The position numbers and the translations under genes were made by a program. The notes below the pieces were generated by a model that saw nothing but the letters and a program-made list of their open reading frames with translations, was not told the origin of the DNA and made no database searches. This document shows positions 42,613-52,807 of a DNA stretch of 64,000 bases, in pieces. Location: positions 1,550,001 through 1,614,000 of the forward strand of contig NZ_CP092370.1 of NCBI RefSeq assembly GCF_028473145.1, given 5' to 3'. Every line of letters begins with the position of its first letter. Position 1 is the stretch's first letter. This DNA is from Flavobacterium sp. CBA20B-1. GTDB lineage: Bacteria > Bacteroidota > Bacteroidia > Flavobacteriales > Flavobacteriaceae.

Positions 42613-42621
42613 CTTAAAAAA

Positions 42622-42731
<110 letters not shown>

Positions 42732-42924
42732 ATCTTTGTTTAAGGTTTAAAGTTTTTTTTGTTTTAGGTTTTAACCTTGAACGTTAAACTTTGAACTTTA
42801 AACGCCACGCCAATGGCGGGCTAATATTGTTAACATATTTTCGATACTTTTTTTTGTAGATATTCTAGTCTTAATACTTAATACTTAATACTAAAATCTT
42901 AATACTATTCTTTACAAAGCAACT
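42732..42924 (-). other. 23S-5S spacer
   Basis: 193 bp without a gene. It holds an inverted repeat (GTTTAAAGTT near 42745, AACTTTAAAC near 42797) that may form a processing stem, a small hairpin CCGCCATTGGCG-like at 42807-42820, and about four heptamer copies of TTAATAC at 42870-42907. Confidence 0.6.
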
Positions 42925-45808
<2,884 letters not shown>

Positions 45809-46066
45809 TGTGCTCTATTTTTTTTGTTTCATGTTTCTTTTTTTAAGGTTTCAAGTTAAACTTGTTACTTTAAAAAAATTTATAACCCAAAAAATGTGCT
45901 TTATACTATTTTCAACACCAGTTAAAACTGATGCCTATTGAAAATATTTTTAAATATTTCTACTTTTTAAATGTATCTCAATATGTCAATGAACTTTTTT
46001 TGTTTAATTGTTAAACCGTGTTATCGGTTAACCGATTAAACAAATCAACGATTAATCGTTGAATCG

Positions 46067-46142
46067 TGGAGAATAAGGGAGTCGAACCCTTGACCTTCCC
46101 GCCTGTAGCGGGACGCTCCAGCCCCTTTTGGCTGAATCTCTT
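46067..46142 (-). pseudogene. Degenerate tRNA-Ala-like copy
   Basis: A full-length but abnormal tRNA-like sequence 3' of tRNA-Ala. Its 3' third is identical to tRNA-Ala (31 bp at 46066-46096 equal 46146-46176). The D-arm is altered (AGCC-AAAAGG-GGCT), the anticodon stem is CCCGC/GCGGG with loop CTACAGG (anticodon would be ACA, not normally used), and the acceptor stem pairs poorly. Probably a duplicated, decayed gene; it may still fold. Confidence 0.6.
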
Positions 46143-46146
46143 ATGG

Positions 46147-46220
46147 TGGAGAATAAGGGAGTCGAACCCTTGACCTCCTGCGTGCAAGGCAGGCGCTCTA
46201 GCCAGCTGAGCTAATCCCCC
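46147..46220 (-). tRNA. tRNA-Ala (TGC)
   Basis: 74-nt cloverleaf in the 16S-23S spacer: acceptor GGGGGAT/ATTCTCC, anticodon loop CTTGCAC with TGC, discriminator A. Confidence 0.97.
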
Positions 46221-46300
46221 CCAATTTAATTATGAATTGTGGATTATGAAATATGAACTAAATTTAATAATCCCTCAACCCTAAAATTTGCTTTGAATAA

Positions 46301-46325
46301 AATACTTTGTAGTCCCGGGCAGACT
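46301..46325 (-). repeat. Partial copy of the tRNA-Ile 3' end
   Basis: 24 of 25 bp equal 46367-46391, which covers the last 16 nt of tRNA-Ile plus its downstream flank. Between the copies is a segment (CTTCGACTTGGCTCAGC, 46329-46345) resembling a dispersed Bacteroidota repeat of the form GAGCnnAGTCGAAG. Confidence 0.65.
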
Positions 46326-46375
46326 TGCTTCGACTTGGCTCAGCATAAACTTCTCGTCTTCCCAGTAATACTTCG

Positions 46376-46449
46376 TAGTCCCGGGCAGACTCGAACTGCC
46401 GACCCCTACATTATCAGTGTAGTACTCTAACCAGCTGAGCTACGAGACT
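46376..46449 (-). tRNA. tRNA-Ile (GAT)
   Basis: 74-nt cloverleaf in the 16S-23S spacer: acceptor AGTCTCG/CGGGACT, anticodon loop CTGATAA with GAT, discriminator A. Confidence 0.97.
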
Positions 46450-46516
46450 CTGTATTTTTTATTCTGCTTTTTTTTGAACCAACAGTTAAAGAGTAAAAGA
46501 TGTTTAAACCATCTCT

Positions 46517-48034
<1,518 letters not shown>

Positions 48035-48170
48035 GTATAATTTTTTTTATTGTTGATGTGTCGTTTAAAACCTCTTGGTGACCCAAGAGCTTTTACTCTT
48101 TAATTCTCTGTTAATCCAATATGTCTATGAACTTATTCTTCTTTCCTTCGCTTCTCTCTCAAAGCGGTTG

Positions 48171-48201
48171 CAAAAGTAAAACTTATTTTTTAATCAGCAA
48201 A
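48171..48201 (-). promoter_or_regulatory. 16S rRNA promoter
   Basis: Minus strand: TTTG (48201-48198), 19-bp spacer, TACTTTTG (48178-48171), followed by CAACCGCTTT. A consensus match about 140 bp before the 16S gene. Confidence 0.8.
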
Positions 48202-48236
48202 TTTATTTTTGCTTTTTTTTGAAAAAGTTTTTTTTG

Positions 48237-48311
48237 TGGGCGATGAGGGGTTCGAACCCCCGACCCCCTCGGTGTAAACGAGGTGCTCTGAACCAGCTGA
48301 GCTAATCGCCC
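48237..48311 (-). tRNA. tRNA-Val (TAC)
   Basis: 75-nt cloverleaf: acceptor GGGCGAT/ATCGCCC, anticodon loop TTTACAC with TAC, discriminator A. It lies ~200 bp upstream of 16S on the same strand. Confidence 0.97.
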
Positions 48312-48332
48312 TTTTTCTTTTTGAACGGACTG

Positions 48333-48365
48333 CAAAGATAATAACCTTTTTCTATACCATCCAAA
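48333..48365 (-). promoter_or_regulatory. tRNA-Val proximal promoter
   Basis: Minus strand: TTTG (48365-48362), 21-bp spacer, TATCTTTG (48340-48333), about 20 bp before the tRNA. Confidence 0.6.
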
Positions 48366-48421
48366 TTTATTTTTTACTTTTTTTTCTAGGAACGTGGCTT
48401 TCGTTGTCCTGAAAGCGGTTG

Positions 48422-48454
48422 CAAATATACTACTCTTTTTTTGGCTTTTGCAAA
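48422..48454 (-). promoter_or_regulatory. Upstream stable-RNA promoter
   Basis: Minus strand: TTTG (48454-48451), 21-bp spacer, TATATTTG (48429-48422), followed by CAACCGCTTT as in the 16S promoter. Probably the distal promoter of tRNA-Val. Confidence 0.6.
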
Positions 48455-48534
48455 TGCTTTTTGAAAGTTTTTTAAACTTTTTTGTAATTATTTGACAGCG
48501 TGTGGTTTTGAAGTTTTAGCTAGGTTAAAATAAT

Positions 48535-48563
48535 CTTTGCCAAAGTTTGGAACTTTGGCAAAG
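48535..48563. repeat. CTTTGCCAAAG hairpin repeat, copy 1
   Basis: Perfect 11-bp inverted repeat CTTTGCCAAAG / CTTTGGCAAAG with a 7-nt loop. The same element occurs at 52661-52689. It may also serve as terminator of the T9SS gene ending at 48590. Confidence 0.75.
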
Positions 48564-48589
48564 TTGTTTTGAAGCTACAGAAAAAAAAA

Positions 48590-49687
48590 CTACTTTTTCA
48601 CCAGCTTCTTAACCGCTGTGCCTTGGTTGGTTTGCAAATGCAGCATATACGTGCCGCTTGCTAAGTTTGCAACGTTTAATTGTATATCGGTTTCGTTGTT
48701 GTAGTTTTGAGTACTAAATTGCTTGCCTGCAACATCATATACCGTGATTTGCTGTATCTGCATATTCTCGGCGTTGGTGATGTTTACCACGCTGTTTGCT
48801 GGGTTGGGGTATAAGTTAAATTTTGCAGCCAACTGCTCGGTAGTTGCTAAAGTGGGTACCGTGTTTTGAGCTACTAAATTAATGTTATCTATTTTGGGGG
48901 TATAAAAAGTACCATCAACATCGCCAGACTTCGTGTAAAAAAACACTAATTCAACAGGGCTGTCATCAGGCAAGGGGTTGCCCTCGGTATCTAAACCACC
49001 CAACTCTAAAGTAAATGCAATGTTTTTAACATTCGTATAGTTTAAAGTTGGTATGCTGAAATACGCTTTGTTGTTATCATAATCTATATACATTTCTACA
49101 GTAATCCAACTGCCCATTGGTGGCGGTTGTAAGGGGGTACCGGGGCTTACCAATACAGCTTCACCTCCTCCGCGATTAAAATTACCCCTAGAAAAATCAA
49201 AACCGGCACCAAAACGATGATAACGAGGTTCATATGAAAACCTGGTCAACCCTCCTTCCTTGCTGTATAAAATTATACGTATTGGATCAGATGGAGGAGT
49301 GGAGCTTATATAACTATCATCTACATACAAATCAAAACTGCACTTAAAAACATTATTACCTGCCGTACGCTGCTGCCAATAGGTGTTTAAATCGGTACGG
49401 AATAAAGTACGGTTCGCTTCGCCTTTTTTGGTGAGGGGTCCTATTTGTGCAACATTCCCTTTGTTGGCTTCGGCTACAATTTTATAATCGTTATTGATAA
49501 GCGGTAAATTGTAAATGAGCTTATTTACAGATTTGGTAAACCAACCGCCTACACCAGGTACCGTGCCGTTATAATCGGTGCCTATATTTCCCACAGGATA
49601 ATTGTTAAAATTTTCGGTGTAGAGTACTTGGGCAGTTAAGTTATAAACGCCTAATAAGGTGGTTATAATAAGGAGAATCTTTTTCAT
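48590..49687 (-). CDS. T9SS-secreted protein with type A sorting domain
   Basis: A 365-residue protein: signal peptide (ends LTAQ), a ~260-residue beta-sandwich-like region (TENFNNYPVGNIG at its start, DLYVDDSYIS, WITVEMYIDYDNNKAYFS), then the type A sorting domain (FNLYPNPANSV ... YDVAGKQF ... LASGTYMLHLQT ... KKLVKK). The middle resembles concanavalin-like lectin/glucanase folds; no catalytic residues can be named. It starts 10 bp after the frame-shifted lipoprotein gene and should be co-transcribed with it. Confidence 0.87.
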   Translation of the reverse strand: MKKILLIITTLLGVYNLTAQVLYTENFNNYPVGNIGTDYNGTVPGVGGWFTKSVNKLIYNLPLINNDYKIVAEANKGNVAQIGPLTKKGEANRTLFRTDLNTYWQQRTAGNNVFKCSFDLYVDDSYISSTPPSDPIRIILYSKEGGLTRFSYEPRYHRFGAGFDFSRGNFNRGGGEAVLVSPGTPLQPPPMGSWITVEMYIDYDNNKAYFSIPTLNYTNVKNIAFTLELGGLDTEGNPLPDDSPVELVFFYTKSGDVDGTFYTPKIDNINLVAQNTVPTLATTEQLAAKFNLYPNPANSVVNITNAENMQIQQITVYDVAGKQFSTQNYNNETDIQLNVANLASGTYMLHLQTNQGTAVKKLVKK

Positions 49688-49697
49688 AGTTAACTAT

Positions 49698-50739
49698 TTA
49701 CTCTATATAAATTTTTACTCCACGAGGTTGTCTATTAGGTTTTGGCACCCAAGGACCGGTAAGAGCCGGAATTTGAACCCACTCATCATAAAACGGCACG
49801 GTAGTTATTTTGCGAATACCAGTGCCGCTGCCTGGGGTAGCAGTACCAAACAACTCTCTAGACCTTTTGCGATGTTGAGGATCTGGACCTGTAAACGTAA
49901 TTGGATCAACAACAATTTCTTTTGTGCTTACACCACTGGGGCTATCGTGATAAAACAAAACGCTGCCAAAAGGCATATCTGAAAGCCCCATTGGAGACCA
50001 ATCACCATTTGTAGTAACATTATTTTCTAAGGCTAATACATAATACGCATCGGGGTCAAAATTATACATATCGGTACCAAACTCTACTTTGTAATAAAAC
50101 ACTTTGCCATACTCGCGCAACAAACGTTCTTCTGCACCCGTACCAGCAGGTGGCGGCGCAGGTAATGGATACCCTAACTGCATAGGTTGTACAATATTGT
50201 TGTTTACAATATCAAAACCAATACTGTTTAAATTATAATTAATACCCACTGGTATGTTTACTAACGGGCAATGATCTTCATCGTGTTGCACCCACAACTC
50301 GTGGGTGTACCAACCTGTACCAGGCACTTGTGTTAATACAATAGGATTTGCTTGTACATAATCGCCGTATTCATTTCCACTGGCAAAAAGATTTGGATAG
50401 GCACCGCTTGCCAAGTTAAACCCACCTGTTGGGGTATTGTAAAAACCGTCATTAGCACCATCATAATATGCCAAACCTATATAAGGGGTTACCCGGACGT
50501 GTACACCGTCGTTCATTGTACCGCTGTATAATTCGTATTTCACTTTATACAATGAATCAATATCCCATGGCGACTCATAAGAATCAGACATGCTATAAGT
50601 TGCATACTGTGAACCGGGATTAGAAGGATGCTCTGAAGTACTTGCTTGACCATTGTCCTCAAATACACTGTCGGTTGTACATGCTGTAAGGGTTAGGCCT
50701 ATTACCCCCCCCCCACAAAATTTTGCTTAATTTGCTCAT
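49698..50739 (-). pseudogene. Lipoprotein gene out of frame at a G10 tract (possible phase-variable OFF state)
   Basis: From the ATG at 50739 the frame reads MSKLSKILWGG, then enters ten G (50714-50705 on this strand) and stops after about 26 codons. With nine G the same start would run on as VIGLTLTACTTDSVFED, a lipobox signal, and stay open through 297 further residues (YESPWDIDSLYK ... RQPRGVKIYIE) to 49698. So the full product would be a lipoprotein of about 345 residues, not a known family. A G10 run is very unusual in this AT-rich DNA and is a classic slippage site; a sequencing error is the alternative. Followed after 10 bp by a T9SS cargo gene. Confidence 0.8.
50705..50714 (-). repeat. 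Homopolymer of ten G (minus strand)
   Basis: Ten consecutive C on the plus strand within the signal-peptide codons of the lipoprotein gene. It is one base longer than the number that restores the frame. Confidence 0.9.
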
Positions 50740-50801
50740 AATTATTATATTTAAGTTGATTGAATTGTAAATATAATAAAAAAATTAACATGTTGTTAAA
50801 T

Positions 50802-52590
50802 AAGAAGCTGTCCGAAAAGTCGGACAGCTTTTTTTTGTTGTATTTTTTCTCCAAAATAATTATCTTAGAGTTGCACAAAAAACCAACAATGGCTAAGGTA
50901 GTTTTTAAAAATCAAACAGGCAATAGTCCTGAACTTTTTCCGATTAATATTTTTGATAAAATCCCTAATAATCACCCTGTTCGATTAATCGAAGAGGTCG
51001 TTAACTCGTTGGATATTAGCAATATAATTAAGTTGTACAAAGGAGGTGGTACCTCTGCATATCATCCAAGAATGATGATTAAAGTGTTGTTTTACAGCTA
51101 TTTGTCAAACGTTTATTCTTGCCGGAAAATAGCTAAAGCACTCACCGAAAACATCTATTTCATGTACATTTCGGGCAACTCTACGCCCGATTTCCGAACC
51201 ATTAACGACTTTCGAGGGAAAATATTAAAAAATCATATTCAACAACTATTTGCCGAAGTAGTGAAAATGCTGGTTGAAATGGGCTATGTAAGTCTTGATA
51301 TTCAGTACATTGATGGAACAAAAATCGAAGCCAAATCGAATCGTTATACTTTTGTTTGGAGAGGTTCGATTGAAAAATACAAGGAAAAATTAGAAGTTAA
51401 AATCAACACGATTATTTCAGATATCGAAAGTGCTATTCAGTCTGATAATCAAGAAATTAACAAAGAAGAATTACCTAAAAGCATCAATTCGGAAGAACTT
51501 CGGGAGAAGCTATCGATCTTGAATAAAAAGCTGAAAGAACCCACTAAAAAACAGGCAAAAGAGCTACAAAAACTTCAGGATGAGCATCTTCCAAAATTAG
51601 AAAAATACGAAAAAGACCTAGAAACTTTAGGCGATAGGAATTCTTACAGCAAAACCGACCCTGGCGCTACTTTTATGCGGATGAAGGAAGATCACATGAA
51701 AAACGGACAGCTTAAACCGGCTTATAATACGCAGATTTCAACTGAAAATCAGTTTATTACCCACGTTTCCATCCATCAAAAACCGGGGGATACCACGACT
51801 TTGGAATCGCATCTCGATGGTTTTGAAAATCTCTATGGAAAACAAAGCAAAGATGTGGTTGCCGATGCAGGTTATGGAAGCGAAGAAAATTACGAAATGC
51901 TTGAAAATAAAAGCATTAAAGCCTACGTGAAGTACAATTATTTTCACAAAGAAGCGAAACGGACGATGAAAAATAATCCGTTTTTGGTTCAGAATTTATT
52001 CTACAACAAAGAACAAGATTTTTACGTTTGTCCGATGGGGCAACGAATGGAAAATGTTGGCAAAGGAAAACGAATTTCGAGCAACGGACACGAATCGAAA
52101 GTGTCTTATTATCAATCAAAAAACTGTAATAATTGTCCGCTTCGAGAGGAATGTTTCAATGCAAAAGGTAATCGCAGAATAGAAGTCAATCACCGTTTGA
52201 ATGAGCTTAAAGAAAGAGCGAGAAATTTATTAACGAGCGAGAAAGGGCTGGAACATCGCAGTAGACGCCCTATAGAAGTAGAGGCTGTTTTTGGGCAACT
52301 CAAGTACAATAATGATTTTAATAGATTTACATTCAAAGGCTTAGAGAAAGTAGAATTAGAATTTCTACTGATGGCTCTTGGACATAATTTTAGAAAAATG
52401 GTGGCTGTAGCAGTTGCGGGAAGAAAAACGGTATTCAAACGCCGTATTTTTGGTTCTAAACTTGTCATTTTTGTCGAATTTAGATGCTATCAGCGGTCTT
52501 TATTTCAAAAAAAGCAAGAAATTAACTTTAGTGATGATGTTGAAAAGTTAGTAGTATAACAAAGAGGCTATCCTTTTTGGACAGCCTCTT
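50802..52590 (+). mobile_element. IS1182-family insertion sequence
   Basis: About 1.79 kb with one transposase gene. Imperfect terminal inverted repeats: the left end begins AAGAAGCTGTCC (50802) and the right end, reversed, AAGAGGCTGTCC (52590). Each end contains an inner inverted copy (GGACAGCTT at 50822-50830; GGCTATCC at 52566-52573), giving hairpins. No clear target duplication is seen. Confidence 0.85.
50889..52559 (+). CDS. IS1182-family transposase
   Basis: A 556-residue DDE transposase. N-terminal domain (MAKVVFKNQTGNSPELFP, then SAYHPRMMIKVLFYSYL), catalytic Asp in YIDGTKIEAKSNR, second Asp in VVADAGYGSEENYE, a CPLREEC zinc-like segment, and Glu in RRPIEVEAVFGQLKYNNDF. An insertion with coiled-coil character sits between the first and second Asp. 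It looks intact. The ATG at 50889 is preferred over an upstream ATG at 50760 that lies outside the element. Confidence 0.92.
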   Translation: MAKVVFKNQTGNSPELFPINIFDKIPNNHPVRLIEEVVNSLDISNIIKLYKGGGTSAYHPRMMIKVLFYSYLSNVYSCRKIAKALTENIYFMYISGNSTPDFRTINDFRGKILKNHIQQLFAEVVKMLVEMGYVSLDIQYIDGTKIEAKSNRYTFVWRGSIEKYKEKLEVKINTIISDIESAIQSDNQEINKEELPKSINSEELREKLSILNKKLKEPTKKQAKELQKLQDEHLPKLEKYEKDLETLGDRNSYSKTDPGATFMRMKEDHMKNGQLKPAYNTQISTENQFITHVSIHQKPGDTTTLESHLDGFENLYGKQSKDVVADAGYGSEENYEMLENKSIKAYVKYNYFHKEAKRTMKNNPFLVQNLFYNKEQDFYVCPMGQRMENVGKGKRISSNGHESKVSYYQSKNCNNCPLREECFNAKGNRRIEVNHRLNELKERARNLLTSEKGLEHRSRRPIEVEAVFGQLKYNNDFNRFTFKGLEKVELEFLLMALGHNFRKMVAVAVAGRKTVFKRRIFGSKLVIFVEFRCYQRSLFQKKQEINFSDDVEKLVV

Positions 52591-52731: not shown

Positions 52732-52807
52732 ACCGCGTTAGGGATAGCAGCGAAAATCCTTTTTGTGAGCTCGCGAACAAAAAGATTGTAGCGAATAGCC
52801 CGACCCG
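52732..52807. ncRNA. Structured element typical of flavobacterial intergenic regions (candidate Flavo-1-like RNA)
   Basis: An outer GGG/CCC pairing (52741-52743 with 52799-52801) encloses two similar internal strands (AGCAGCG at 52746 and TGTAGCG at 52788). An inner 11-position stem ATCCTTTTTGT / ACAAAAAGAT (one bulge) follows. From memory, this 'TTAGGG ... AGCCCGACC' layout recurs between genes of flavobacteria and may be the Flavo-1 motif. Strand and function uncertain. Confidence 0.4.

Follow-up and report, generated by a model that had tools for sequence, protein, structure and literature searches.

The run of ten G residues in the signal-peptide codons of a lipoprotein gene of Flavobacterium sp. 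CBA20B-1 is, with a probability of about 0.8, one switch of a multi-locus phase-variable contingency family. The gene lies in a stretch of 64,000 nucleotides (contig NZ_CP092370.1, positions 1,550,001 to 1,614,000), which we refer to as the window, and the 3.04 Mb genome, related to that of Paenimyroides aestuarii, contains nine lipoprotein paralogues with a G tract in these codons. A preliminary description of the window had read the tract as a phase-variable ON/OFF switch, and we found this reading to be supported as far as relatives can answer, the variation being that between copies and species. In the proposed mechanism, slipped-strand changes in tract length would shift the signal-peptide frame; nine G would give a lipoprotein of ~340 to 370 aa, and 7, 8, 10 or 11 G would end translation from the ATG after 11 to 26 residues. 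If the loci switch independently within a culture, the set of surface lipoproteins that the population presents would keep changing.

The G tract in the window

On the minus strand, 50739-50699 consists of ATG, 22 nt and G10-TAATAGG (Table 1). The ten G reported in the preliminary description are present (minus strand, 50714-50705), and the stop that it placed after about 26 codons is found at that point, the ATG frame yielding a 26-residue product (MSKLSKILWGGGNRPNPYSMYNRQCI); the window copy is OFF as sequenced. The same description held that nine G would open a frame with a lipobox, and a natural G9 paralogue at chromosomal position 1879655 does read MSKLSKILWGGVIGLTLTAC and encodes 351 aa, while the window frame stays open to a TAA at 49700-49698. 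The lipobox cysteine was identified by eye in MSKLSKILWGGVIGLTLTAC of this in-frame copy; the residues from the cysteine on, likewise read by eye, are CTTDSVFED in the window copy and CSDDVYEE in the homologue P0018. The SDDFE consensus of the surface-export (LES) signal, derived for F. johnsoniae, is summarised as polar then acidic residues after the +1 Cys (PMC5080379), and the lipoprotein may be exposed at the cell surface.

Table 1. Features of the lipoprotein-cargo cassette (positions within the window)
Feature	Position	Strand	Remark
T9SS type A cargo gene, 365 aa, lectin-like (ConA-type) predicted fold	48590..49687	-	
T9SS C-terminal sorting domain	48599..48814	-	within conserved 3' block common to cassettes
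Gap, lipoprotein stop to cargo ATG	49688..49697	-	10 nt; hairpin not unusual, z -0.54
Lipoprotein body, lipobox frame VIGLTLTAC-TTDSVFED...	49698..50705	-	335 codons and stop
OFF ORF at present tract length	50659..50739	-	26 residues, then stop
G10 tract, signal-peptide codons	50705..50714	-	seen in sequence
Leader start codon ATG	50737..50739	-	tract begins 25 nt past the A of ATG; same spacing at 21/21 leaders
Promoter-like TTAACA-18-TATATT	50770..50799	-	consensus scan only
Palindrome TTAACAACATGTTAA (TTAACA-N3-TGTTAA)	50785..50799	-	candidate operator overlapping -35-like element

Chance models of orders 1 to 4 were built from the composition of the window and applied to 3,038,422 bases. 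G/C runs of at least 10 occur three times in the genome against 0.51 expected under the first-order model (0.12 to 0.97 at orders 2 to 4), so the G10, earlier called conspicuous, does exceed chance. The preliminary description had proposed a search for other G/C runs of at least 8 at gene starts; the whole genome, the window run included, has 11 such runs (first-order expectation 12.5, and 4.1 to 16.9 for orders 2 to 4), seven of which are located at the identical point of one shared leader; a genome-wide excess of G runs was rejected, since the 11 runs compare with 12.5 expected. Among individual runs, a G12 (G000:C1:1265266-1265277, L064) is inside an open 674-aa protein with a T9SS tail and is in frame as sequenced, and a G9 in the cargo gene of P. 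viscosum (G027; L046 763-771) is also in frame. A G8 (G000:C1:1860825-1860832, L070) terminates an L-type-lectin-like frame, and was left uncounted as a switch because the frame downstream lacks a simple resumption.

The lipoprotein family

The single lipoprotein gene of the preliminary description is real, but it is not alone, a profile search recovering nine paralogues. A leader pattern, ATTTTGTGGGG-N(0-12)-TAATAGG, gave eight matches in the genome and none when reversed. These eight paralogues have one shared leader comprising a promoter-like region, a palindrome (TTAACA-N3-TGTTAA) and an ATG 25 nt before the tract, and their tracts are G10 in the window, G8 at 1707132, G9 at 1879655, G10 at 2201890, G8 at 2246972, G7AG at 2249341, G8 at 2258164 and G8 at 2826748. 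The profile search recovered the eight and the ninth copy (1244073), which has a different leader and a G7 tract, with the nearer ATG out of frame and a farther ATG in frame. Only the G9 copy 1879655 (351 aa) and the interrupted G7AG copy 2249341 (344 aa) are in frame among the eight shared leaders, and 2246972 is also broken further downstream and is decayed. Judged by their sequences, seven copies look able to switch, namely the six shared-leader copies with an intact body and an unbroken tract and the ninth with its G7, and 2249341, with its broken tract, seems fixed ON. Neither Pfam, searched with the 297-aa lipoprotein fragment of the window and two paralogues, nor NCBIfam, searched with three lipoprotein paralogues, returned a family.

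Among database proteins, P0026 and P0034 start in frame (MTKFTKILWGGVI), and the residues of P0030 would fit six G. For others, such as P0002 (MGGVIGL..., the P. aestuarii G8 copy), the annotated start is a GTG located at the tract, which may act as a weak start. At G8, such a GTG inside TTTTGTGGGG could provide a short in-frame start, so that OFF at this length may be leaky. The chromosome analysed here (G000:C1) has 2,954,073 bases versus 2,954,087 for its protein-database record, which is possibly a second assembly.

Tract lengths among relatives

The leader pattern was run on 398 genomes of the genus and matched 10, of which 7 were kept; G320, G321 and G347 were dropped because their matches hold only four G. 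This gave 21 leader sites in 7 of the 398 genomes, with 2151556 of P. aestuarii (G022) and 1244073 of this genome standing outside the 21 as they do not fit the search pattern. A slightly stricter pattern run on 397 genomes drawn from the family (237 genera) matched nothing beyond this genome except a single place that lacks a long G run. Leaving out the interrupted G7AG copy, and including 2246972 and three copies of G276 despite their short bodies, we counted 20 uninterrupted tracts, with lengths of 7 (two tracts), 8 (nine), 9 (three), 10 (five) and 11 (one). The single nine-G length that would have pointed to an assembly error is thus not what relatives have. Near-identical bodies can also carry different tracts, the window copy (G10) and 2826748 (G8) being 99.4% identical in protein. 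G-to-A changes are found in two copies: G7AG stays in frame with its run broken, and in 2151556, a further copy of P. aestuarii, the run opens with an A that creates a stop codon in the leader.

Since nine G is the sole in-frame length, 17 of the 20 tracts are OFF; of the three that are in frame, G276 2175582 gives a product of only 43 residues. Against the one third expected of a free switch, 3/20 in frame corresponds to p 0.06, and 1/7 in this genome alone to p 0.26, both from copies that are not independent. Out-of-frame tracts are present in 6/7 genomes, including the multi-contig assemblies G027 (P. viscosum) and G107 (P. ummariense). Homopolymers are a recognised weak point of assemblies, and an error of sequencing or assembly would be one account of an out-of-frame run; with 17/20 sites out of frame in 6/7 genomes, and separate 80- and 90-contig assemblies among them, we consider it scarcely credible.

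G runs of such length are possible slippage sites, and RNA polymerase or the ribosome could slip on them so that every tract length would yield some full-length protein, in a regulated rather than stochastic manner. Such a process would fit the combination of mostly out-of-frame copies with bodies that are nonetheless under selection. One would expect a programmed site to hold a single length, however, and the lengths range from 7 to 11, which makes this explanation decidedly unlikely.

Constraint on the lipoprotein body

Fourteen of the 17 out-of-frame copies have an open body of at least 315 codons, the other three being 2246972 and two of G276. We compared 11 copies by dN/dS, reporting only pairs above 45% identity. 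Two OFF copies, that of the window (G10) and its nearest P. aestuarii counterpart (G7), differ with dS 0.209 and dN 0.036 (ratio 0.17), and the window copy gives ratios of 0.29 with 2201890, 0.27 with 2249341 and 0.28 with 2826748, the last from six changes only. The G9 copy 1879655 and P. aestuarii 1350740 (G10) have a ratio of 0.17, and P. aestuarii 1350740 and 904924 one of 0.35. Comparisons with 2246972 span 23 codons and range from 0.30 to 0.53, with one 20-codon comparison at 0.57; the remaining long pairs fall at 0.17 to 0.29, and one pair is without any non-synonymous change. These low ratios indicate that constraint has acted on the lipoprotein protein, although gene conversion by ON copies could account for part of them.

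A plain pseudogene is a natural suspicion for the window copy, its frame being broken as sequenced and a transposase gene lying just upstream. The frame is nevertheless free of stops for 335 codons, its dN/dS relative to an OFF copy from a different species is 0.17, the leader and palindrome are intact, and homology to the other copies begins just upstream of the palindrome, so that we regard simple decay as very improbable. Nor are the out-of-frame copies decayed as a class, the further possibility raised in the preliminary description (14/17 open for at least 315 codons; dN/dS 0.17 to 0.29 between the window copy and its four closest relatives). The spread of tract lengths, together with a mostly retained frame under purifying selection, favours a phase-variable contingency locus; a pseudogene or an assembly error fits less well.

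Palindrome and promoter-like region

TTAACA-N3-TGTTAA occurs at eight places in the genome, exactly the eight shared leaders, and the reversed pattern at three; the eight copies are paralogous and hence do not represent eight independent events. The palindrome is kept at 20/21 leaders of the 7 genomes with nine different spacers, and is read here as a candidate operator. The E. coli promoter consensus guides poorly in Bacteroidota, and a scan of 48300-51000 with this weak guide returned 14 promoter-like sites against 7.5 expected. The transposase gene directly upstream of the window leader (Pfam DDE_Tnp_1_6, DUF772), which we take to be IS1182-like, has left the palindrome intact, homology of the window copy to the others starting at ~50803.

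Exchange of cassette bodies

Comparison with P. aestuarii indicates that the bodies of cassettes have changed their place on the chromosome. The site 1707132 is syntenic with P. aestuarii 1279338, and the two share 95.6% identity between -1500 and +56 relative to the tract; past +56 their lipoprotein bodies differ up to the cargo, and the 1707132 body instead matches P. aestuarii 2151556 (90.6%). Within this genome, 2201890 and 2249341 encode lipoprotein bodies of identical amino acid sequence. The variable part is bounded on one side by the conserved leader, which spans about -124 to +45, and on the other by roughly the final 260 bp of the cargo; recombination between these two conserved blocks would shift bodies among sites.

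The in-frame share below one third means that many copies could be long-silent donors. In the extreme form of this idea, most copies are an archive fixed OFF, expression changes mainly by recombination into a few in-frame loci, and the tract simply marks silence. The low in-frame count (3/20), the identical bodies of 2201890 (OFF) and 2249341 (ON, with a broken tract) and the syntenic site with different bodies in two species are all compatible with it. Silent donors, however, would not have to keep an unbroken tract at every copy, nor the palindrome and the promoter-like region, and near-identical copies such as the window G10 and 2826748 G8 differ in length. We therefore hold it to be unlikely, though not negligible; our estimates for the alternatives are not exclusive of one another or of the phase-variable reading.

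The cargo gene and its probable coupling to the lipoprotein

The preliminary description had placed a T9SS cargo gene 10 bp downstream, and we confirm both the spacing and the sorting domain (Por_Secre_tail: PF18962, 60.3 bits, cut-off 27; TIGR04183, 55.5 bits, cut-off 23). Behind 21 of the 22 leaders inspected (the 21 and 2151556) lies a cargo gene, intact in 19 cases, one of them beyond an inserted transposase gene, and broken at 2826748 and one G276 site; none was found after the leader G261 2545845 (1/22). A cargo profile has 37 matches in the genome, with 12 genes spanning the whole model, one of these as two broken pieces (2827773-2828866), and the other 24 matches being mostly the sorting domain alone.

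Lipoprotein and cargo are separated by 9 to 10 nt in the window type and by 51 to 66 nt in others. Of three gaps that were folded, the long ones at 1707132 (z -4.06) and 1879655 (z -3.81) form strong hairpins, and that of the window (z -0.54) forms none. The cargo is probably switched together with the lipoprotein, by translational coupling or polarity at the short gaps and perhaps by hairpin attenuation at 50 to 66 nt. Polarity of the lipoprotein frame onto the cargo finds indirect support in G276, whose body extends only 29 to 32 codons from the tract at 3/3 leaders (tracts of 7, 8 and 9) and whose short leader ORFs stop 2, 11 and 2 nt short of the cargo ATG (the first spacing taken by eye, that cargo being broken). 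This spacing of 2 to 11 nt suggests that the cargo can be controlled directly through translation of the leader ORF. More tentatively, the leader, with its palindrome, promoter-like region and poly-G ORF, may form a heritable switch module that is portable and serves mainly to switch a secreted lectin-like T9SS protein, with the lipoprotein body optional (as in the 40-odd-residue ORF of G276) and with modules and bodies recombining into a combinatorial surface lectin repertoire.

Relation to known switching systems

The opa genes of N. gonorrhoeae are summarised in PMC13183285 as having repeats in the signal-sequence codons at 9 to 12 loci, gene conversion, and a mean of 1.7 in-frame genes where a one-third null predicts 3.4. 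The present family resembles opa in its roughly ten loci per genome, its repeat in the signal-sequence codons, its in-frame share below one third, its near-identical pairs and the gene conversion or shuffling among loci. The opa repeat is CTCTT, whereas here it is a G homopolymer, and unlike opa the product is a lipoprotein of an unnamed family with a T9SS cargo behind it, in a Bacteroidota lineage. Because the features are opa-like but the protein and the repeat type are not, we describe the family as working like opa rather than filing it as a member.

For the pil1 locus of S. gallolyticus, a leader-peptide mechanism has been proposed and tested, with a GCAGA repeat and a premature terminator studied genetically, according to the summary in PMC3894217. 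The likeness is that the repeat length in an upstream ORF moves the translation stop relative to a hairpin and the surface genes downstream, as could apply to the 51 to 66 nt cassettes and the G276 ORFs. It differs in that attenuation or coupling is only inferred for the present family, and that the upstream ORF in this genome is mostly a full lipoprotein gene.

Poly-G and poly-C contingency genes with tracts of similar length at surface-gene starts occur in Campylobacter, Neisseria and Treponema and resemble this family in that respect; we know of none with a shared leader, its own palindrome and a paired T9SS cargo. In Bacteroides, phase variation proceeds by invertible promoters, that is DNA inversion through recombinases. 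The result there is also surface antigen switching in Bacteroidota, but by inversion rather than homopolymer slippage. If the present reading is correct, the family would be a Bacteroidota case resting on homopolymer slippage instead of DNA inversion and tied to the type IX secretion system.

Opa-like repertoires are usually interpreted as evading host immunity. To our knowledge, Paenimyroides is mainly environmental, and this member of the Bacteroidota is not known as a pathogen. An Opa-like architecture in it suggests that phages, predators or substrates can also select for such repertoires, and a role in adhesion or in phage or predator avoidance would be conceivable. The open-access titles and abstracts examined contained no account of a comparable system in this group, and a word search of a survey of homopolymeric tracts gave 0 occurrences of Bacteroid or Flavobacter (PMC2831843). 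The tracts are directly countable in any culture.

Genomic surroundings of the cassettes

An rRNA operon (window 42619-48311) lies just downstream of the window cassette and is co-oriented with it, and the same arrangement is present at 2201890, 2826748 and P. aestuarii 2151556. A Flavo-1 RNA (Rfam RF01705) lies upstream of 3/4 of these rRNA-linked cassettes on the opposite strand (window 52742-52800; L069 4396-4478; L074 4271-4353). The segment 50803-52600 of the window is an insertion with the transposase gene (50889-52559), apparently replacing a terminator-like hairpin found upstream of the other leaders compared, and related transposase genes adjoin P. aestuarii cassettes.
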